From Acidimicrobiales bacterium (GTDB lineage: Bacteria; Actinomycetota; Acidimicrobiia; Acidimicrobiales; JACCXE01), in assembly GCA_035546775.1 (NCBI GenBank), contig DASZWD010000050.1:1-47282 (forward strand): a DNA stretch of 47,282 nt. Reading direction: 5' to 3'. This document shows positions 1 through 19,298 of the stretch, in pieces. Position numbers and translations under genes: made by a program. The notes below the pieces were generated by a model that did no database searches, was not told where the DNA came from, and saw nothing but the letters and a program-made list of their open reading frames with translations. Every line of letters starts with the position of its first letter. Position 1 is the first letter of the stretch.

Positions 1-1310
1 TGGGCGGAGGCCTGCCCACCGTCGCGACCGCCGATCAGGACTCGTCCCCCTGAGGCCGGTGAAGCACCCGAGACGAGGTTGAGCAGCGTCGTCTTGCCCG
101 AACCGTTGGGACCGATGAGGCCGTGCACAGTGCCCGGCGCCACGACGAGGTCGATACCGTCGAGGGCCACCAGGCCACCGAAACGCTTGGTGAGACCGAT
201 GAGCTCGAGCGCGGCGCTCTCGCCCGGCTCGACGTGACGCAACACGGTGCCGGCCGTGGCCGACGCGGCGGCGGCGACGTTCGGGTCGATGACCGCCGGC
301 TTGGCGCGGCTGTTCATCAGTTTGCGGATGTTGCCCATCGTTCCCTCCGGCGCGAGGGCCACACCGGCGAGACCGAGGACGCCGAAAACGAGGTTCTGCT
401 CGTTGACGAGGTGGGTCTGCACCCAGCTAATGCCGAAGCCGAAGGTGACCGCCATGGCGCCGATGATCGGGCCGGCGAGAGTTCCGAGACCGCCAAGGGC
501 GATCACCACGACGTAGCGGAAGGACTGTTCCTGCGTGCCCGAACCGGGGCTCACGAGCAGGAAGCGCTCGGCGGCGACCACACCGGCGACGGCGACGATG
601 CCGGCCGAGAGGGCGAAGGCCGACACCTTGTGCAGGTACGTGCCGACGCCCGACGCCTCCGCCGCGAGTTCGGACTCGCGAATCGCCATGCTCGCCCGGC
701 CCCACTTGCCACGCACGAGGTTCCAGCACAGCCACAGCGTCAGGAACAGCAAGACCGACGACAGGATGAACAAGCCGCGATACGAGTCGCCGTGCGCAAA
801 CGGCAACCCGGCCACGTTGATCGGGTGGTCGACGCTGCGCCCGCTCGTGCCGCCGAGCATCGTCTTGAGCACCACGACGAGCGCAGGCAGCAATGCCCCG
901 AACGCCAGGGTGACGACGGTGAGATAGAAGCCGCGCAGGTGGCAGCACAGGAGGGCGAGCAGGGTGCCCATCAGCGCGCCGAAGGCGAACGCGACGGGAA
1001 GGCCGAACCAGGGCGACAGGCCCCACTGCGGCGCCCACACCGCGCCGGCGTACCCGCCGGCGACGAAGAACCCGGCGTGGCCGAGCGACAGCAAACCGGT
1101 GTAGCCGGTCAGCAGGTTGACGCCCAACGCGATGGCGGCGAGGTAGGTGGCCTCGACGCCGATGTCGAGCCACGACCGCGACGACGAACCCGGCACGTTG
1201 GCGAACCAGATCAAGAACACCGCCAGCGCGGCGGCGGGCACGAAGCGCGACAGCGCCGCCGGCACGTGGAACCGCGGCAGCTTCACTGCCGGGAGGTGAG
1301 CAGTGGCCAC
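1..1310 (-). CDS. livM: LivM-LivG fusion: branched-chain amino acid-type ABC permease plus ATPase (partial)
   Basis: Inner-membrane permease fused to the cytoplasmic ATPase of a branched-chain amino acid/amide-type ABC importer. Translating the minus strand from the GTG at 1310 gives one open frame to the window edge. The first ~330 residues are a LivM-type permease with several hydrophobic segments and a conserved G-Y-T-G-L-L-S-L-G-H stretch. From about residue 370 a LivG-type ABC domain starts (T-K-R-F-G-G-L-V-A-L), with Walker A GPNGSGKTT at residues 400-408 (positions 113-87). The rest of the ATPase (signature, Walker B) lies left of the window. The start is 3 nt after the livH stop, so the genes are co-transcribed. 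LivM-LivG fusions are known in Actinobacteria. The exact substrate cannot be read from the sequence. Confidence 0.88.
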   Translation of the reverse strand, partial: MATAHLPAVKLPRFHVPAALSRFVPAAALAVFLIWFANVPGSSSRSWLDIGVEATYLAAIALGVNLLTGYTGLLSLGHAGFFVAGGYAGAVWAPQWGLSPWFGLPVAFAFGALMGTLLALLCCHLRGFYLTVVTLAFGALLPALVVVLKTMLGGTSGRSVDHPINVAGLPFAHGDSYRGLFILSSVLLFLTLWLCWNLVRGKWGRASMAIRESELAAEASGVGTYLHKVSAFALSAGIVAVAGVVAAERFLLVSPGSGTQEQSFRYVVVIALGGLGTLAGPIIGAMAVTFGFGISWVQTHLVNEQNLVFGVLGLAGVALAPEGTMGNIRKLMNSRAKPAVIDPNVAAAASATAGTVLRHVEPGESAALELIGLTKRFGGLVALDGIDLVVAPGTVHGLIGPNGSGKTTLLNLVSGASPASGGRVLIGGRDGGQASA

Positions 1311-2226: not shown

Positions 2227-3702
2227 CTAGTGAATCTTGCACTCGTTGCCGAGCGTGCCGTCGGCGTGCTTGGTGCACTGCGTGCCGTAGCCGAGGCGCA
2301 ACACCTCCGCCATCGTGTCCGGATGGGCGCGCTTGTTTGCTTCGAGCGTCGGGCGCACGAGGTGCGTAGGGCCGACGTAGCCCGCGGGGAACACGCTCTT
2401 CCATTCCGCGCCGAGTTCGTACGCCGGCGTCGTCTTGGCCGGCCCCGACGACTTCTCGAGGGTGACGATCAGCAGGTCGTCCATCGTCTTGGAGAGGTGG
2501 CGGTCGGCGCTGAAGCTGAACGGCAGCGACGCGAACTTGATATCGCCCATCGTCTCGAGGGCGGTGACCATCTTCTGACGATCCGTCGACCCGGCGCTCT
2601 GCGTGGCCTTGAGCAGCGCGAACAGGCCGTCGGCCGGCGACTCTTCGCCACCGGTGACGCCCTTCTTCAGGAACTTCTGCATCCAGCCGCGGATGGCGAA
2701 GCTGGGCAGCGAGACGAGCCCGCCGACATGCCACGCCGTCAGCGTTCCGATCTTGGCGGCGGAGCCGGCGAGGTCGGCCCACGTGTGCTCGCCGGTGCCA
2801 CCGGGCGACCCCATGATGTGCGGGTTCCAACCGCCGGCCTTCGCCGTCGGGGTGTCGACGTAGCCGCCGCCCACCTTGTCGATCGCCTTGGCGATGCCGG
2901 CGGTGTCACCAGCGATACCCCAGACGAACAGGGAGTGACCTTTCTGACCCTTGAGCCGGTTGATCTGCGGACCGAAGTCGGCGTCGCCGAGCTGGTAGCT
3001 CTCCATGCCGGCGGTCGACATCCCGTACTTGCTCATCGACGCGGTGAAGTACTCCTTGGCGTTGGCGCCGATCAGCGTGTCGTAGATGAGGCCGACCTTC
3101 GAGTAGCCGCGGTCGTTCTTGGCGTAGTTGGCGAGGACGTCGAAGGCCATCGAGTCGGGCATGAGCATCTGGAAGATCGACCGCTCGGGCGCGCTGGGGT
3201 ACAGGCTCTTCGACGAGTACAAGTCGTTGAACACCGCGATGACGGGCATGTTGTCGCGCTTGATCTGCGCCCGACTCTCGTCGAGGCCGGCACCGCCGCA
3301 CCACAGGATGCCGATGACGCTCGAGTCCGACGCGAACGCCTGGTACGCCTTCACGCCCGCCTGCGGGTCGGTACCCGTGTCGCGCTTGATGACCTCCACC
3401 TTGCGCCCGCCGATGCCGCCCGTCGCATTGATCTGGGCGACGGCGGCGTCGAGTGAGTTGTTGACGATGCGGCCCACGAAGGCGCCGACGCCGGAGAAGA
3501 TGCCGACGACACCGACCTTCAGCGTGTCGCCCGAAGCGGTGAAGCCCCGCGACTTGTCGGCCGCCGTGGTGGCCGACGACTGGTCGTTCTTGTTACCGCC
3601 ACCACCGCAAGCGGTGAGGGCGAGCACCGACATCGTGCCGAAGCCGACCGAGCCGGCCCACTTCACAAAGTCTCGTCGGGAGAATTCCTTCTGTTCGTCC
3701 AT
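2227..3702 (-). CDS. ABC transporter substrate-binding lipoprotein with Tat-type signal
   Basis: Extracytoplasmic binding protein (491 aa, Peripla_BP_6/LivJ-like type I fold) that should deliver a ligand to the LivH/LivM permease. The N-terminus has a twin-arginine motif S-R-R-D-F at residues 8-12, a hydrophobic stretch and a lipobox L-T-A-C ending at Cys32, followed by a Gly/Asn/Ser/Thr-rich linker. This implies Tat export and lipid anchoring. The mature part shows the family pattern (KVGVVGIFSG.GAFVG, D.AVAQINATGGIGGRKVEV, VIGILW). It lies 2 nt after the second binding-protein gene in the same operon. Ligand unknown: amino acids, amides, urea and aromatic acids are all used by this family. 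Confidence 0.88.
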   Translation of the reverse strand: MDEQKEFSRRDFVKWAGSVGFGTMSVLALTACGGGGNKNDQSSATTAADKSRGFTASGDTLKVGVVGIFSGVGAFVGRIVNNSLDAAVAQINATGGIGGRKVEVIKRDTGTDPQAGVKAYQAFASDSSVIGILWCGGAGLDESRAQIKRDNMPVIAVFNDLYSSKSLYPSAPERSIFQMLMPDSMAFDVLANYAKNDRGYSKVGLIYDTLIGANAKEYFTASMSKYGMSTAGMESYQLGDADFGPQINRLKGQKGHSLFVWGIAGDTAGIAKAIDKVGGGYVDTPTAKAGGWNPHIMGSPGGTGEHTWADLAGSAAKIGTLTAWHVGGLVSLPSFAIRGWMQKFLKKGVTGGEESPADGLFALLKATQSAGSTDRQKMVTALETMGDIKFASLPFSFSADRHLSKTMDDLLIVTLEKSSGPAKTTPAYELGAEWKSVFPAGYVGPTHLVRPTLEANKRAHPDTMAEVLRLGYGTQCTKHADGTLGNECKIH

Positions 3703-3704
3703 CG

Positions 3705-5003
3705 TTAGCCTCCGTATGGATTGTCGAGACCCGCGAGCGCGGCGGGTGGGGTGTACGACCCGGCGACGGCGATCCAGTGACCGCCGGCGGTGGCGTCGGT
3801 CGGGTAGCGCCCGCCGCCGTCGTTGAGCGACGAGTACGTCAGCAACGCCACGTTCTTGTCGTTGAAGGCGAGCTGCTGCGAGAAGTCGTCTGGCGCTCCG
3901 ACCGTGCCCGTGACGGCGTCGGTGGCCACGTTCTTGATGGCGTCGAGCACGTCGGCGCGATCGGCCTTCGCCTCAGCCGCGTGGACGAGTGCGAGCACAG
4001 CGTCGTGACTGCGGAAGTCGGCGAACGTCAGGTCGGCGCTCACCGCACCACTCGACACCGCCTTGTCGCGGGCGAGGTAGAACGCGTCGGCGGCGGCGGT
4101 GGGCAGGTCCGGACCGGCCCAGGTTCCGACCGAGAGCGCACCGTCGTTGACGGCGGGTGCGAGCGACCCGGCGACACCGTGGCCGAAGGCGGGTACTGCG
4201 GCGCGATCGCCGAAGAGCAGCGCGCCGCTGTAGCCGGCCGTCGACAGCGCGTCGGCCGCCGCCAGCGACGTGGCGGCGTCGGCGAACACGATCACCGCGT
4301 CCGGCGCGCCGGCGACGATGCCCGTCGCCGAGATCGGATCCGTCGCGGTGATCGGCGTGTCGCTGACGAAGGACAACCCGTCGGCGACGAGCGCCGCCTT
4401 GCCGGCGTCGCCGTAGGAACCGGCTTGGCGCAGCAGCGCGATCTTGCCGGCGTCCTTGGTCTTGTCGGCGAGCTTGGATGCGACCTGTTCGATCGTGGGT
4501 GACGCCAGGTACGAGGTGGCGCCCTGGTCGACGATGCGGTGATCGTCGGCGTAGGGGTACACGACGGCGACGCCCTTCTCGGCGGCGGTGGCGGCGCCGG
4601 CGAGCAGTTGCTCACCGGTCGACGCGTACACGATGCCGATCACGCCCTGGTCGACGAGGTTGTTCACCGCCGCGGTCGCGCCGTCCGGCGTGCCGTTGTC
4701 GTCCTGCACGGCGAGCTCGACGTGGCTGTTGCCCGTCTTGGCTTCGTTGAGGCGGAAGGCCGCGATGTACGCGCCGGCCGCCATGTCCTTCAGGTCGGCG
4801 CCGGGACCGGCGCTCGACACGATGAGGCCGACCTTGGCGTCCTTCACGGTCGTCTGCAGAGCGATGGCCGGGGCGCCCGACAGGTTCGTCGAGCGGGCCT
4901 TCTCGCCCTCGGTGTTGGTCTTGGTCTTGCTGCTGCACGCCACACCCGCGAGGGCGACGGCGACGCAGACGGCCGCTGCGGCCGCTTTCCGGGCCCGGGT
5001 CAT
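3705..5003 (-). CDS. Second ABC substrate-binding lipoprotein (Peripla_BP_6-like)
   Basis: 432-aa secreted protein with a short Lys/Arg N-terminus, hydrophobic segment and a probable lipidation Cys23 (A-G-V-A-C-S-S; position -3 is not the usual Leu). The mature sequence follows the type I periplasmic-binding fold (VGLIVSSAGPGADLKDMAAG, VQDDNGTPDGATAAVNNLVDQGVIGIVYASTGE). It is clearly divergent from the 491-aa binding protein next to it, so the operon carries two different receptors. Its ATG overlaps the stop of the upstream repeat-protein gene by 4 nt (5000-5003), which points to translational coupling. Ligand unknown; a sensory rather than transport role is also possible. Confidence 0.8.
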   Translation of the reverse strand: MTRARKAAAAAVCVAVALAGVACSSKTKTNTEGEKARSTNLSGAPAIALQTTVKDAKVGLIVSSAGPGADLKDMAAGAYIAAFRLNEAKTGNSHVELAVQDDNGTPDGATAAVNNLVDQGVIGIVYASTGEQLLAGAATAAEKGVAVVYPYADDHRIVDQGATSYLASPTIEQVASKLADKTKDAGKIALLRQAGSYGDAGKAALVADGLSFVSDTPITATDPISATGIVAGAPDAVIVFADAATSLAAADALSTAGYSGALLFGDRAAVPAFGHGVAGSLAPAVNDGALSVGTWAGPDLPTAAADAFYLARDKAVSSGAVSADLTFADFRSHDAVLALVHAAEAKADRADVLDAIKNVATDAVTGTVGAPDDFSQQLAFNDKNVALLTYSSLNDGGGRYPTDATAGGHWIAVAGSYTPPAALAGLDNPYGG

Positions 5004-12985: not shown

Positions 12986-13029
12986 GGCACCGGCTCACAT
13001 TGCCGGGTATCGCGGTAGCGTCCGCGGCG

Positions 13030-13686
13030 ATGGCGCCGCGCAGTTTTCTCCTGACCGACGAACTCCACGCCTACCTGCTGGCGCATATGGCGCCGCTCGA
13101 CGAGGTCGCGCAGTCGCTCATCGACGCGACCGTCGCCCTCGGTGGCGTGAGCGGCATGCAGATCGCACCCGACCAGGGCGCGTTCCTGGCGCTGTTGGTG
13201 AAGCTGACGGGCGCGCGCCGGTGCATCGAAGTCGGCACGTTCACCGGCTACTCCGCACTGTGCGTGGCCCGCGCGCTACCCGGCGACGGCACGCTGCTGT
13301 GCTGCGACGTCAGCGACGAGTGGACGCGCATCGGGCGCGAGCACTGGGCACGCGCCGGCGTCGATCACAAGATCGACCTGCGGATCGCGCCCGCGGTCGA
13401 CACGCTGCGGGCGCTCCCCCGCGACGAGCAGTTCGACTTCGCGTTCGTCGACGCCGACAAGCCGAACTACGTCAACTACATAGAGGAAATCGTGCCGCGA
13501 TTGCGGTCGAATGGCGTGTTGCTCGTGGACAACGTGTTGTGGGGCGGTGCGGTGATCGACGCCAGCAACACCGACGACAACACCGTCGCCATTCGCCGCA
13601 CCAACGATTTCGTGGCCGCCCACCCCAATCTCGAGTCCGTCATCCTGCCGGTGGCCGACGGGCTCACGATCGCCCGCAAGCGGTAG
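13030..13686 (+). CDS. Class I SAM-dependent O-methyltransferase (caffeoyl-CoA OMT type)
   Basis: 218-aa methyltransferase that would transfer a methyl group from SAM to a catechol-type hydroxyl. Visible motifs: Q-I-A-P-D-Q-G-A-F-L-A-L-L-V-K leading to motif I I-E-V-G-T-F-T-G-Y-S-A, motif with C-C-D-V-S-D-E-W, F-D-F-A-F-V-D-A-D-K-P-N-Y (metal-binding Asp and the conserved D-A-D-K-x-N-Y), and L-L-V-D-N-V-L-W-G-G. All are typical of the bacterial COMT/CCoAOMT family (Methyltransf_3). Full length. Start ATG at 13030. The downstream ATPase gene begins 9 nt after its stop, so they may share a transcript. Substrate unknown. Confidence 0.9.
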   Translation: MAPRSFLLTDELHAYLLAHMAPLDEVAQSLIDATVALGGVSGMQIAPDQGAFLALLVKLTGARRCIEVGTFTGYSALCVARALPGDGTLLCCDVSDEWTRIGREHWARAGVDHKIDLRIAPAVDTLRALPRDEQFDFAFVDADKPNYVNYIEEIVPRLRSNGVLLVDNVLWGGAVIDASNTDDNTVAIRRTNDFVAAHPNLESVILPVADGLTIARKR

Positions 13687-13695
13687 CGCACGACC

Positions 13696-16674
13696 GTGCG
13701 CGAGGCCCTGCTGCACGAGCTGCGGTCGGTGGCCGACGCCGCGGCCCGCGGCACCGGCGCGATCGTGCTGCTCACCGGCGAAGCCGGCATCGGCAAGACG
13801 AACGTCACGCGCGCGGCGACGCGCGCGCTCGGTGAGGGGTGGCGCGTCACGTATGGCAACTGCGTCGCCGACCGCAGCGCGCCGCCGTTCTGGCCGTGGC
13901 TCGAGTTGGTGACGGCGCCCGATACCGACGCCTCGGTCGACGAAGTGTTCGGCTCGGCCGCCGCGGGCGCCGAGCGCTTTGCCCAGCTCAACCGCATGCG
14001 CGACGAAATCCTGGCGGCGGCGCGACAACGACCCCTCCTCCACGTGATCGAGGATCTCCAGTGGGCCGACGTGGCCTCGCTGCGATTGCTCGCCCACGTG
14101 GGCACCGTCGTCGACACCGCGCCGCTGCTCGTCCTGGCGACGCTGCGCACCGGTGAACCGATCGCCAACGCGCTCGACGACGCCCTCGAGGACGTGCGCC
14201 GCTCGGCCGAGGTGCGCCCCGTCCCCCCACTCGACCACGACGACGTCGCCGCTCTGCTGCACGCCGCCAACGTCGACGCCGCGGCCGACCTCGTGGGCCT
14301 CGTGTGCGAACGGACCGGCGGCAACGCGCTGTACGTCACCGAGCTGGTGCGCTCGGTGCGGGCTGATCAGCACGACGACCGCCTGCGCGAGCAACTCAGC
14401 GGCAACGTGCCGACCCGCGTGTCCGAACTGATCGCCCGTCGCCTCGACCGGCTGCCGGCGCCGGTGGCCGACCTCGTAGTGCACGCCAGCGTGCTCGGCA
14501 GCGCGGGCGACACGCGCGCGCTGGCGGAGACGCACGGCGTGTCGGTCGACGACGCCCTCGACCTGCTCGAACAGGCACGCGCCGCCCGCCTCGTCGAGAC
14601 GGCTACCGGCGCCCGCTGGCAGTTCCGGCACGCGCTCGTGCGCGACGCCGTGTACAGCACACTGACGGCCGCGGAGCGCGCCCGGCTGCACGCCGGCGCA
14701 TTGCAGGCGGCGCTCACCCACGACACCGCGCCACCGGCGTTGCTCGCCCATCACGCGTTCGCCGCCGTCCCGCTGGTCGAGCCACTCCGCGCCGCCGAAC
14801 TCGCGGTGCGCGCCGGCGAAGCGGCGCGGGCCCACCACGCCCACGAGGAGGCGCTGCGCTGGTTCGACCTGGCGCTCGACTCCACCGGCGACGCCGGCAA
14901 CCCAGCGCGCCCCGAGTGGCTCGTTCTCGCCGGCGAGGCGCGCCGGCACATCGGCGACGTGACGACCGCGCAACAACGCTTCCTCGCAGCGGCCGAGACC
15001 ACCGACGACCCCGGGCTACTGGCGCGGGCTGCGCTCGGTTACGCCGACCCGGGCGCCGATCTCGGCATCGCCTACCGGAGCAGCGACCCGATGACCGCAG
15101 ACCTGCTCGACCGCGCCCTCGCCGCGCAGCCGGCGGGGGCCGACTCGGTGATGCGCGTGCGCCTCCAGTCGCGCCTCGCGGCTGAGCTGTACTTCTCCCA
15201 CGACCGCGCCCGCGGCCAGTCGCTCATCGCCGACGCCTTGGCCGGCGCCCGTCGCCTCGGCGACCAGCGGGCCATGGTCATCGCCGGCGCGGTCAACCAC
15301 GACGCCTTCGTCGTCGGGCAGCGCCCGCTCGACGAGCAGCTACAGGGCTCCGCCGACCTGTTGGCCCTGGCGCGCGCGTCCGGCTCTCCCCTCGCCGTGC
15401 TCACCGCCCATCGCGCCCGCGTGTTCGACCACTTGGCCGCGGGCGACATCGCCGGCGTCGACGCGGAGATCCTCGAGTTCCGTCGCGTGCTCGGGACCTA
15501 CGGCGACGCGCCGGCGCTGGCGTGGTGGCCGGCGCTGTGGTCGGCGATGCGCACGCTGCTCCAGGGCCCGCTCGAAGACGCGGAGTCGCGTGCCACCGCC
15601 GCGTTCGAGATCGGCCGTGTGTCGTCGCCTACCAACTCGTTCACCAACCTGTCGTTCCAGCTGTTCTTCCTGCGCCGCCAGCAAGGCCGCTTCGCGGAGG
15701 TCGAGCAGGCGACGCGCGACTTCGTAGCGTCGAACCCCGACATCCCCGCTGTACGCGTTGCGCTCATCTTTCTCTTGGCCGAGATCGGGCGGCTCGACGA
15801 GGCCCGCACCATGCTCGGCGCCATCGACGACAAGGCGCTCCTGGCGCTGCACGACCGCAATTGGCCCGCCTCGTGGTTTCAGCTGGCCCGCGCCGCCGAG
15901 TGCACCGGCAGCCGCGAGCTGGCGCGCACGTTGCTCGACACCGCGCCGAGCGAGCGCTGCGTGATGGTCTCGTTGGCCACGGTTTGCCTCGGAGCGACCG
16001 ACCGCGCCCGCGCCTGGCTGCACGCCACGCTCGGCGAGGCCGACAATGCGAGCGAGCTTCATGCGGCGGCCGACGCCCTCGACGCGCAACTCGGTGCCCG
16101 CGGGTGGTTGCAGGCGCCGCCCTCGCCGCGGCCACAACCAGCGGCCGCCGTCTTCCTCCGGCAAGGGGCCGCGTGGGAGGTGACGTTCGGCGCCTCCACG
16201 ACGCGTCTGGTGCACTCGCGCGGTCTGGTCGACCTTGCTGTGCTGTTGCAGCGCCCCAACGAGGCCGTCTCGGTGCTCGAGTTATTGGGCGACGGCGCCG
16301 ACGCCACGTCGAGCCGCGGCCCCGCCGCCCTCGACGACCGCGCCAGGCGCGAGATCCGCGACCGCATGCACGCCCTCGACGCCGCCATCGCGGATGCCGA
16401 GTCGGCGGACGACGGCGAGCGTGCCGCGCTGGCACGCGAGGAACTGCAACAGCTCGCCGAGCACGTGGCGCGCGACCTCGGCCTCGGCGGGCGCGCCCGG
16501 CGCGTCGACGACCCCGTCGAGCGGGCGCGCAAGACGGTGTCGACCCGCATCCGCCGGGCCATAGCGACAGTGAAGGCGGCGCACCCCGACCTGGGTCGCC
16601 ACCTCGAGCGCTCCGTCGACACCGGAACGTGGTGCGCCTACCGGCCCGCCGAGCCCATCCGCTGGACCACGTAG
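13696..16674 (+). CDS. Large AAA_16/NACHT-like ATPase regulator
   Basis: 992-aa cytoplasmic STAND-type ATPase starting at GTG 13696. N-terminal P-loop G-E-A-G-I-G-K-T at ~residues 30-37, Walker B-like L-H-V-I-E-D-L-Q-W-A-D at ~115-125, then a helical tetratricopeptide-like middle region (~350-780). The C-terminal ~190 residues match a wing-like domain seen in actinobacterial AAA_16 regulators (W-E-V-T-F-G...R-L-V-H-S-R-G-L-V-D-L-A-V-L-L-Q-R-P, then R-K-T-V-S-T-R-I-R-R-A-I and P-D-L-G-R-H-L-E-R-S-V-D-T-G). No LuxR helix-turn-helix was recognised at the C-terminus, unlike classic MalT/LuxR-type members. The likely role is signal-dependent regulation; target unknown. Confidence 0.75.
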   Translation: MREALLHELRSVADAAARGTGAIVLLTGEAGIGKTNVTRAATRALGEGWRVTYGNCVADRSAPPFWPWLELVTAPDTDASVDEVFGSAAAGAERFAQLNRMRDEILAAARQRPLLHVIEDLQWADVASLRLLAHVGTVVDTAPLLVLATLRTGEPIANALDDALEDVRRSAEVRPVPPLDHDDVAALLHAANVDAAADLVGLVCERTGGNALYVTELVRSVRADQHDDRLREQLSGNVPTRVSELIARRLDRLPAPVADLVVHASVLGSAGDTRALAETHGVSVDDALDLLEQARAARLVETATGARWQFRHALVRDAVYSTLTAAERARLHAGALQAALTHDTAPPALLAHHAFAAVPLVEPLRAAELAVRAGEAARAHHAHEEALRWFDLALDSTGDAGNPARPEWLVLAGEARRHIGDVTTAQQRFLAAAETTDDPGLLARAALGYADPGADLGIAYRSSDPMTADLLDRALAAQPAGADSVMRVRLQSRLAAELYFSHDRARGQSLIADALAGARRLGDQRAMVIAGAVNHDAFVVGQRPLDEQLQGSADLLALARASGSPLAVLTAHRARVFDHLAAGDIAGVDAEILEFRRVLGTYGDAPALAWWPALWSAMRTLLQGPLEDAESRATAAFEIGRVSSPTNSFTNLSFQLFFLRRQQGRFAEVEQATRDFVASNPDIPAVRVALIFLLAEIGRLDEARTMLGAIDDKALLALHDRNWPASWFQLARAAECTGSRELARTLLDTAPSERCVMVSLATVCLGATDRARAWLHATLGEADNASELHAAADALDAQLGARGWLQAPPSPRPQPAAAVFLRQGAAWEVTFGASTTRLVHSRGLVDLAVLLQRPNEAVSVLELLGDGADATSSRGPAALDDRARREIRDRMHALDAAIADAESADDGERAALAREELQQLAEHVARDLGLGGRARRVDDPVERARKTVSTRIRRAIATVKAAHPDLGRHLERSVDTGTWCAYRPAEPIRWTT

Positions 16675-16688
16675 AGCAGAAATTTCGC

Positions 16689-16707
16689 CGTGTCGCGTCG
16701 CGACACG
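16689..16707. terminator. 19-bp perfect palindrome after the ATPase gene
   Basis: CGTGTCGCG, T, CGCGACACG between the ATPase stop (16674) and the next start (16730). Could be a short GC-rich terminator stem or an operator for the downstream gene. No T-run. Confidence 0.35.
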
Positions 16708-16729
16708 CACTGTCGCGCCTTTCTCCACG

Positions 16730-17452
16730 ATGGACGTGGACGAGAGGCGCCTCGGTGAACTGGTCGAACGCTTCGCCGACGACGTCGCGGCGGCCACGCG
16801 TGCCGCCACCGTCGTGGCCGGGGATCGCCTCGGCCTGTACCGCGCCCTCGCCTATCTCGGCCCGTCCGATGCCACGGACCTGGCCCCCTTCGCCGGCGGC
16901 GACGTGCACTTCGTGCAGGAGTGGCTCGACGCGCAGTGTGCAGCCGGCTACTGCCACTTCAGCGCGCTGACGCACCGCTACTGGCTGAGCCCCGAGCAAG
17001 AGGCCGTGCTGGCCGACACCGCCAGCCCGACGTTCATGGTCCCGGCGATGACCCTCGCCCACCTGCGCTTCACCCACCAGACAATCAAGGAGACAGCAAT
17101 GCCCGGAGTGGAATACAACGACTTCAGCCAGCCCGACGAAGTCCGCTCGCCCGACAAGACGACCGTCGAGATCGTCAAGATCGGCGGCGGCGAGATCGGC
17201 CGCTACACCTTCCAGCCCGGCTGGCGCTGGTCGGAGTGCATCAAGCCGGTCGCCGGCACCGACTCGTGCCAGGTCGAGCACGTCGGCTACTGCCTGTCGG
17301 GCGCCATCCACGTCAAGCACGACGACGGCACCGAGGCCGACGTGAAGGCGGGCGACGTCTATCGCATCGCGCCGGGTCACGACGCGTGGGTCGACGGCCC
17401 CCAACCGATGGTGACCGTCGAGTTCCAGGGCGCCGCGGGTTACGCGAAGTAG
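16730..17452 (+). CDS. Cupin protein joined in frame to a methyltransferase N-terminal domain
   Basis: 240-aa open frame in two unlike parts. Residues 1-~115 match the N-terminal winged-helix dimerisation domain of Rv2258c-like SAM methyltransferases (V-A-G-D-R-L-G-L-Y-R-A-L-A, V-Q-E-W-L-D-A-Q-C-A-A-G-Y, L-S-P-E-Q-E-A-V-L-A-D), but the SAM-binding Rossmann domain is absent. Residues 124-240 are a complete small cupin (E-I-G-R-Y-T-F-Q-P-G-W-R-W-S-E-C, V-E-H-V-G-Y-C-L-S-G, D-V-Y-R-I-A-P-G-H-D-A-W). The cupin has its own ATG at 17099 with an AAGGAG 6 nt upstream, so it may be translated alone and the first part may be a truncated remnant. Downstream is an OsmC gene. Confidence 0.7.
   Translation: MDVDERRLGELVERFADDVAAATRAATVVAGDRLGLYRALAYLGPSDATDLAPFAGGDVHFVQEWLDAQCAAGYCHFSALTHRYWLSPEQEAVLADTASPTFMVPAMTLAHLRFTHQTIKETAMPGVEYNDFSQPDEVRSPDKTTVEIVKIGGGEIGRYTFQPGWRWSECIKPVAGTDSCQVEHVGYCLSGAIHVKHDDGTEADVKAGDVYRIAPGHDAWVDGPQPMVTVEFQGAAGYAK
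17087..17101 (+). promoter_or_regulatory. Internal Shine-Dalgarno and ATG for the cupin part
   Basis: AAGGAG at 17087-17092, six bases, then ATG at 17099, exactly where the cupin homology begins. This is a better initiation site than that of the upstream ATG at 16730 and supports a separate cupin product of 117 aa. Confidence 0.6.
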
Positions 17453-17512
17453 CGCAGGCGTAACGCGCCCAACCAGTTTCAAGACCGACATTCACAAGAG
17501 GGAGGAACCCAA

Positions 17513-18076
17513 ATGACCATCACCGACAACGCCGTGGACAACGGCGTCAACCTGGAAGCACTCAAGGAAGCCCGCACGGTTCTGGGCGAGCAGCCGGAAC
17601 TCGCACGCTTCGAGTGGCGCGTCACCAACACGTGGAAGTGGGGCACCCACAGCGTCGCCACCGTCGAGAAGTTCGGCGGCATGGGCGGCGAGCAGACGCA
17701 CAAGCAGCCCTTCGCCTACGACATCGACCATCCCGAGCTGTTCGCCGCCGAGGACAACGGCGCGACGCCCGTCGAGATGGTGCTCGTCGGCCTCGCCGGC
17801 TGCCTGACCGCCGGCGTGGCGTCGATCGCGCAACTGCGCGGCATCCAGCTGCGCTCGGTCACGGCCGTCATCGAAGGCGACATGGACGTGCGCGGCAGCA
17901 TCGGCGTCGACCCTGAGGTCCGCAACGGCTTCAGCGCCGTCCGCGTGCGCTACCAGATCGACGCCGACGACGCGTCGCGCGAGGACCTCGAGGCGGTGCT
18001 GGCGCAGTCGCAGAAGCGCTCACCCGTCTACGACCTCCTCACCAGCCCGACCATCGTCAGCGTCGAGTTGGCGTAG
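17513..18076 (+). CDS. OsmC/Ohr-family protein
   Basis: 187-aa OsmC-fold protein, probably a thiol peroxidase-like or related enzyme. Features: F-E-W-R-V-T-N-T-W-K-W-G-T-H-S strand, a G-A-T-P-V-E-M-V-L-V-G-L-A-G-C-L-T-A-G helix with the first conserved Cys (~residue 102), and a basic/acidic second half ending in I-V-S-V-E-L. The second peroxidatic Cys expected in Ohr is not evident, so peroxidase activity is uncertain. A clear SD GAGGGAGGA precedes ATG 17513. Followed 7 nt later by the flavoprotein gene, so likely one transcript with it and the cupin. Confidence 0.82.
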   Translation: MTITDNAVDNGVNLEALKEARTVLGEQPELARFEWRVTNTWKWGTHSVATVEKFGGMGGEQTHKQPFAYDIDHPELFAAEDNGATPVEMVLVGLAGCLTAGVASIAQLRGIQLRSVTAVIEGDMDVRGSIGVDPEVRNGFSAVRVRYQIDADDASREDLEAVLAQSQKRSPVYDLLTSPTIVSVELA

Positions 18077-18083
18077 GTCCAAC

Positions 18084-19298
18084 GTGCGCACGACGACCGT
18101 CATCGTCGGCGCCGGCCACGCGGGGCTCGCCATGAGTCGCCGCCTCACCGAGCGCTCGATCGACCACGTGGTCCTCGAACGCGGTGAGGTGGCGAACTCG
18201 TGGCGCACCGAGCGCTGGCCGAGCCTCCGGCTGCTGACGCCGAACTGGCAGACGACGCTGCCCGACTTCGCCTACGACGGCGACGATCCCGACGGCTTCA
18301 TGGCGGTGACCGAGGTCGTCGACACCATCGCGACGTACGCCAAGCACGTCGCTGCGCCGGTGCAGACGCACACGACGGTCGAGTCCGTGCACGCCAACGG
18401 CGAAGGCTACCGCGTCGTCACGGACCAGGGCCTGTGGGACGCGCGCTGCGTCGTGCTGGCGACGGGCGCGTGCAATCGCGCCGTCACGCCGGCGTGCGCC
18501 GCCGCGGTGCCCGAGGGCGTCGCCACGCTCACACCGATGGACTACCGCGGCGCCGACGCGCTGCGCGACGGGGGCGTGCTCGTCGTGGGTGGTTCGGCCA
18601 CCGGTGCGCAACTGGCCCAGGAAATCCACCTGTCGGGGCGACCGGTCACGTTGTCCACCGGCGAGCTCGTGCGCCTGCCGCGCACGTATCGGGACCGCGA
18701 CATCTTCTACTGGATGGACCGCGTCGGCATCTTCGACGAGCGCTACGACAAGATCGACGACCTCGTGCGCGCCCGCCACCTGCCGTCGCCGCAGCTCATC
18801 GGCACGCCCGAGAAGGCGTCGCTCGACCTCAACTCGCTGCGCACCATCGGCGTGCGCGTCGTCGGCAAGCTGAGCACCATCGTCGACGGCCGCGCCCACT
18901 TCGCCGGCTCGCTCGGCAATATCGCGAAGCTGTCCGATCTCAAGATGCACCGGCTGCTCAACACGATCGACGAATTCGCCGGCTTCACGCGCGACGACGC
19001 ATTGCGGCCCGAACCCACGGCGCTCGACGCGACGCCGTGCCTTGGTATCGACCTACGCGGCGGCGAGATCCAGACGATCGTGTGGGCGACGGGCTACCAG
19101 CCCGACTATTCGTGGCTCGAACTCCCGGTGTTCGACCACCACGGTCGGATCAAGCACGACGGCGGAGTAGTGCAGGACGCACCGGGTGTGTACGTCCTTG
19201 GGCTCCCACTCCTCCGCCGCCGCCGCTCGACCTTCATTCACGGCGCCTCCGCCGACACCGGCGACCTGGCGAGTCACCTCGCGGCGTCCGTCGCCTAA
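18084..19298 (+). CDS. FAD/NAD(P)-dependent oxidoreductase, flavin monooxygenase-like
   Basis: 404-aa flavoprotein starting at GTG 18084. FAD-binding V-G-A-G-H-A-G-L-A-M near residues 8-17, E-R-G/W-R-T-E-R-W-P-S-L-R-L-L-T-P-N-W as in FMO-like proteins, a second dinucleotide motif V-L-V-V-G-G-S-A-T-G-A-Q-L-A near residues 168-180, and a late V-W-A-T-G-Y-Q-P-D-Y signature. The group includes putative monooxygenases and CzcO-like flavoproteins; hydroxylation substrate unknown. The C-terminus R-R-R-R-S-T-F-I-H-G-A-S-A-D is typical of the family. Its last 4 bases overlap the convergent GAF-kinase gene. Confidence 0.82.
   Translation: MRTTTVIVGAGHAGLAMSRRLTERSIDHVVLERGEVANSWRTERWPSLRLLTPNWQTTLPDFAYDGDDPDGFMAVTEVVDTIATYAKHVAAPVQTHTTVESVHANGEGYRVVTDQGLWDARCVVLATGACNRAVTPACAAAVPEGVATLTPMDYRGADALRDGGVLVVGGSATGAQLAQEIHLSGRPVTLSTGELVRLPRTYRDRDIFYWMDRVGIFDERYDKIDDLVRARHLPSPQLIGTPEKASLDLNSLRTIGVRVVGKLSTIVDGRAHFAGSLGNIAKLSDLKMHRLLNTIDEFAGFTRDDALRPEPTALDATPCLGIDLRGGEIQTIVWATGYQPDYSWLELPVFDHHGRIKHDGGVVQDAPGVYVLGLPLLRRRRSTFIHGASADTGDLASHLAASVA

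Follow-up and report, generated by a model that had tools for sequence, protein, structure and literature searches.

The described proteins closest to the locus analyzed here are, on one side, SAM-dependent methyltransferases of the Rv2258c type and, on the other, small single-domain cupins. A complete methyltransferase from a relative (locus L035) aligns with TnmJ (PDB 8g5s) over its full length and with PDB 5f8c, which we take to be Rv2258c, over most of it; intact relatives of this kind carry the SAM-binding domain at about residues 175-351. Our window, i.e., the whole 47,282-nt stretch of an Acidimicrobiales contig that was analyzed, encodes a product whose alignment covers residues 12-107 for TnmJ (E = 1.4e-9) and residues 11-104 for 5f8c (E = 3.7e-4). 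Compared with Rv2258c-type methyltransferases, it keeps the first 110 of 352 residues and lacks both the remainder of the helical domain and the entire SAM-binding domain. The N-terminal domain of RedM is treated in PMC10784701. Our search of the literature for a methyltransferase-cupin fusion of this type found nothing.

Translation of the open reading frames confirmed a single forward-strand frame of 240 codons at 16730-17452, in which, as the preliminary description had recognized, a methyltransferase N-terminus runs in frame into a cupin. The winged helix-turn-helix domain of Rv2258c-like proteins (HTH_65, PF21320) was matched by Pfam on residues 27-94 (E = 1.5e-7; 32 bits versus a cut-off of 24.1). 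The assignment of residues 1-115 to an Rv2258c-like enzyme therefore stands for most of that segment, although homology to the intact enzyme ends slightly earlier, at residue 110. No SAM-binding domain was detected by domain search in the 240 residues, and the methyltransferase core is thus missing altogether, as originally noticed. Residues 124-240 constitute a complete cupin of 117 aa. At the nucleotide level, methyltransferase codons 1-110, with the HTH_65 region and without a Shine-Dalgarno sequence, occupy 16730-17059 (+). They are followed by a short junction (17060-17086, +) made of leftover methyltransferase end or spacer, within which the breakpoint is placed only approximately. The cupin gene (17099-17452, +) is intact and, as also noted before, retains start signals of its own: an ATG at 17099-17101 and an AAGGAG Shine-Dalgarno at 17087-17092 (+), with a pairing energy of -8.3 kcal/mol. 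Mapped onto a structural model of the intact enzyme, residue 110 falls within a helix (104-115), and the helical portion continues to about residue 162-171. Therefore, the retained part is not a whole N-terminal domain.

Orthologous loci indicate what the ancestral arrangement may have been. Among 149 loci, three distinct ones, L142/L006 (genome G055), L033 (by coordinates, contig G409:C191 of the class-genome search) and L035, carry a regulator gene, a full 352-aa methyltransferase gene and a separate cupin gene, whereas L143 and L144 have the regulator and the 352-aa methyltransferase with no adjoining cupin. The window counterpart of this regulator is an AAA_16-type gene encoding 992 aa (13696-16674, +), the orthologue of which lies 5' of an intact methyltransferase in all five relatives. 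No close relative with an intact locus was found among the genomes searched, and the sole genome of the same genus (77% complete) showed no counterpart of the locus and no DNA match to it. An unrelated second O-methyltransferase gene (Methyltransf_3, E = 1.4e-57) is found at 12991-13686, just 5' of the regulator on the same strand.

Codon 110 and the cupin ATG are 39 nt apart in the window; the three intact loci have 775, 775 and 790 nt at this place, so that the net loss amounts to 736-751 nt. From the methyltransferase ATG to the cupin ATG, the intact loci measure 1105, 1105 and 1120 nt, all with a frame offset of 1, whereas the window measures 369 nt with an offset of 0. This difference in three out of three loci argues that the joined frame arose with the deletion. 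Similarity on both sides of the join is far beyond chance, and E-values together with synteny rule out a fortuitous resemblance of either half; the in-frame join itself does not exceed chance. When deletions were simulated in the three intact loci, 32-33% of them produced a join that was both open and in frame. An open frame is thus expected of about one such deletion in three and does not speak for function.

These data favor the first of the two options initially considered, namely a remnant produced when a deletion brought two genes together: three syntenic loci are intact, the frame has changed, the upstream Shine-Dalgarno has been lost and the fusion is absent from the other genomes searched. 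We thus propose, with a rough probability of 0.82, that the methyltransferase gene was broken by an internal deletion and that its remnant shares a reading frame with the intact cupin gene by chance. The ancestral row would have consisted of regulator, full methyltransferase (352 aa) and cupin as separate co-directional genes. A single internal deletion of about 740-750 bp would have taken methyltransferase codons ~111 to 352, the stop codon and part of the spacer, leaving codons 1-110 abutting the last bases 5' of the cupin Shine-Dalgarno. The leftover frame would then coincide with that of the cupin by chance, at odds of about one in three, and this coincidence of frames is why a gene finder reports one 240-aa gene. 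The outcome resembles deletion-remnant pseudogenes in operons in its truncated homologue, lost initiation signal and intact syntenic relatives, but it differs from the typical case in that the frame is still open and continues into the neighboring gene.

Initiation signals point in the same direction. For the remnant, the 20 nt preceding the start pair with the 16S tail at +1.0 kcal/mol, as opposed to -10.5 to -12.3 kcal/mol in L142, L033, L035, L143, L144 and L145, the six nearest relatives examined, while the value for the window cupin (-8.3 kcal/mol) equals that of the L142 cupin. Likewise, the regulator stop is separated from the methyltransferase ATG by 55 nt in the window versus 85, 87 and 89 nt in relatives. 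Judging from these signals, the cupin is most likely translated from the ATG at 17099 behind AAGGAG. Codons 1-110 are most likely a pseudogene, since they have lost their own Shine-Dalgarno and retain no catalytic part. For annotation purposes, this means that two features should take the place of the 240-aa gene, namely a methyltransferase remnant (16730-17059) and a cupin gene (17099-17452). More generally, as about one-third of such deletions leave an open join in these loci, a fusion of operon neighbors seen in a single genome needs to be compared with syntenic loci before any function is put forward for it.

Relocation of the methyltransferase core was rejected as an explanation. A search of the bacterium's own genome (97.5% complete) for the lost part yielded, as its best match, a 36% paralogue on another contig, and hence no copy that could have moved. 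The intact L035 enzyme was matched at E <= 1e-60 in 58 of 397 genomes of the order, and most of the matches listed for it extend to the final residues. Partial matches among those listed cover residues 1-222 (G305:C46), 71-350 (G384:C454), 155-352 (G216:C379) and 116-351 (G046:C226), none of which resembles the 1-110 segment of the window.

The same search bears on an unlikely alternative, an assembly error in which the contig skips about 740 bp or merges two strains or loci while the organism keeps an intact methyltransferase. The locus is read from a draft assembly in 75 contigs. Moreover, a relative's contig offers a possible precedent: at L145, 3595-4467, where contig G305:C46 ends, the frame of another methyltransferase of this family continues into a sequence unrelated to it. 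That sequence is reminiscent of HypE, and the contig is probably chimeric. The junction in the window, however, sits 17 kb into a contig of 47 kb, and no other copy of the missing segment turned up in the genome, which is 97.5% complete. The lost Shine-Dalgarno and the shortened leader (55 versus 85-89 nt) are hundreds of bases away from the join and fit a gene that had already decayed.

Traces of decay in codons 1-110 are mild: the remnant has no stop codon, its GC content by codon position is gene-like and only 1 of 11 strongly conserved columns is broken, a count that does not set it apart from intact copies (0/11 to 4/14). R60, an arginine invariant in 13 intact enzymes, is replaced by histidine in the window. 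Columns conserved within the near group are broken more often in the window (7-10 of 50-59) than in five near intact copies (1-4 of 50-53), and the more distant L145 reaches 10 of 59. With synonymous sites near saturation, pN/pS over codons 1-110 ranges from 0.41 to 0.53 in five pairs with the window versus 0.22 to 0.40 in ten intact pairs. The corresponding cupin values, also near saturation and calculated without L035 because of a gap, are 0.41 and 0.63 in two window pairs versus 0.52 in one other pair. Conservation of the N-terminal part exceeds that of the regulator C-terminus by 4 to 20 points (mean, 11) in six pairs of intact loci, whereas in four pairs with the window this difference shrinks to between -2 and +4 points. 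L143 was left out of this comparison, its regulator row comprising just 73 aa, partly in another frame. The L143 regulator changes frame near its C-terminus (about 3607-3741), which reflects either a frameshift or a sequencing error. A recent deletion is conceivable, as is a remnant that the cell tolerates as a leader or an additional N-terminus.

The second option of the preliminary description, a genuine small sensor-cupin fusion, was not supported. It would be a 240-aa protein in which a partial winged-helix N-terminus serves the cupin as a small sensor or oligomerizing extension, born by the deletion and then kept, and we consider it unlikely. The frame open through the join, the gene-like codon-position GC and the few broken conserved columns are compatible with such a protein. 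Leaderless translation is also conceivable; since leaderless mRNAs are reportedly extensive in Mycobacterium tuberculosis, a missing Shine-Dalgarno does not forbid translation. The locus would then represent a newborn domain fusion whose N-terminal part, with translation initiated in the absence of a Shine-Dalgarno, tethers or oligomerizes the cupin and is under selection. Against this stand the cut inside a helix, which leaves an incomplete domain, the raised pN/pS, an open join expected once in three events, and the loss of the remnant Shine-Dalgarno in the face of a cupin that retains its own start and Shine-Dalgarno.

The distribution of the fusion weighs in the same sense. Relatives with the identical 240-aa fusion and a conserved junction, which would speak against a remnant, were sought in two overlapping genome draws that both contain the bacterium's own genome. 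Matches to the 240-aa query occurred in 47 of the 397 genomes from the order at E <= 1e-20 and in 36 of the 395 from the class at E <= 1e-25; in each draw, the match from the window itself is the only one to cover both parts. A conserved fusion is thus ruled out, as no second genome in either draw joins them. In the order search, all N-terminal matches lie within open frames of at least 367 codons. In the species-genome collection, residues 1-123 were matched near a cupin at 2 of 74 cupin loci, L033 and L035, both with intact methyltransferases.

The cupin itself was examined by sequence, predicted structure and phylogeny. Cupin_2 was matched on residues 182-227 (E = 7e-5, below the gathering score), DHCW_cupin (NCBIfam) only weakly (19.7 versus a cut-off of 70 bits), and no solved structure was found that matches the window cupin by sequence. 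The AlphaFold2 model (pLDDT 93.7) retrieved cupins in Foldseek, with TM1459 as the best match, and the window protein shares the fold of these TM1459-like small single-domain cupins. An alignment of 32 cupins has 18 invariant columns, among them H61 and H94 as candidate metal ligands, and 17 rows compared have the same methionine start. The conserved residues are common to relatives in many phyla. A tree of 101 cupin rows and 121 columns places the window cupin next to a sister clade (support 98/91) that comprises all three methyltransferase-linked cupins and the cupin of G030, next to which no methyltransferase was found; the cupins of G196 and G077 fall outside this group.

Downstream of the cupin, the window encodes an OsmC-like protein (17513-18076, +) and a flavin-dependent oxidoreductase that resembles the MSMEG_0569 family under the family cut-off (18084-19298, +). 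The row of cupin, OsmC-like protein and flavin oxidoreductase (window 17099-19298) recurs at L134 (G196) and L135 (G077) with no adjoining methyltransferase, and forms a conserved module that is perhaps redox-related. Least probable of the readings weighed here is a two-locus recombination that joined a regulator-methyltransferase pair to a separate operon of this type, which remains a rival because the five-gene row with an intact methyltransferase was not found among the 149 loci, and which the free-standing rows of L134 and L135 would suit, but the branching of the window cupin with methyltransferase-linked cupins rather than with the L134/L135 type (on 121 columns only) sets it aside as first choice, and an internal deletion needs just one event.

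A scan for promoters and terminators found nothing. Between regulator and remnant, at the place of the methyltransferase leader of relatives, lies a perfect palindrome with 8-base arms around a 1-base center, GTGTCGCG T CGCGACAC (16690-16706). The genome has a single occurrence of its 15-base core; with two mismatches allowed, four matches are found in the window, which is not above chance. A further half-site, TGTCGCG, lies beside it at about 16711-16717. The palindrome is possibly an operator, for which 16690-16706 is a candidate.
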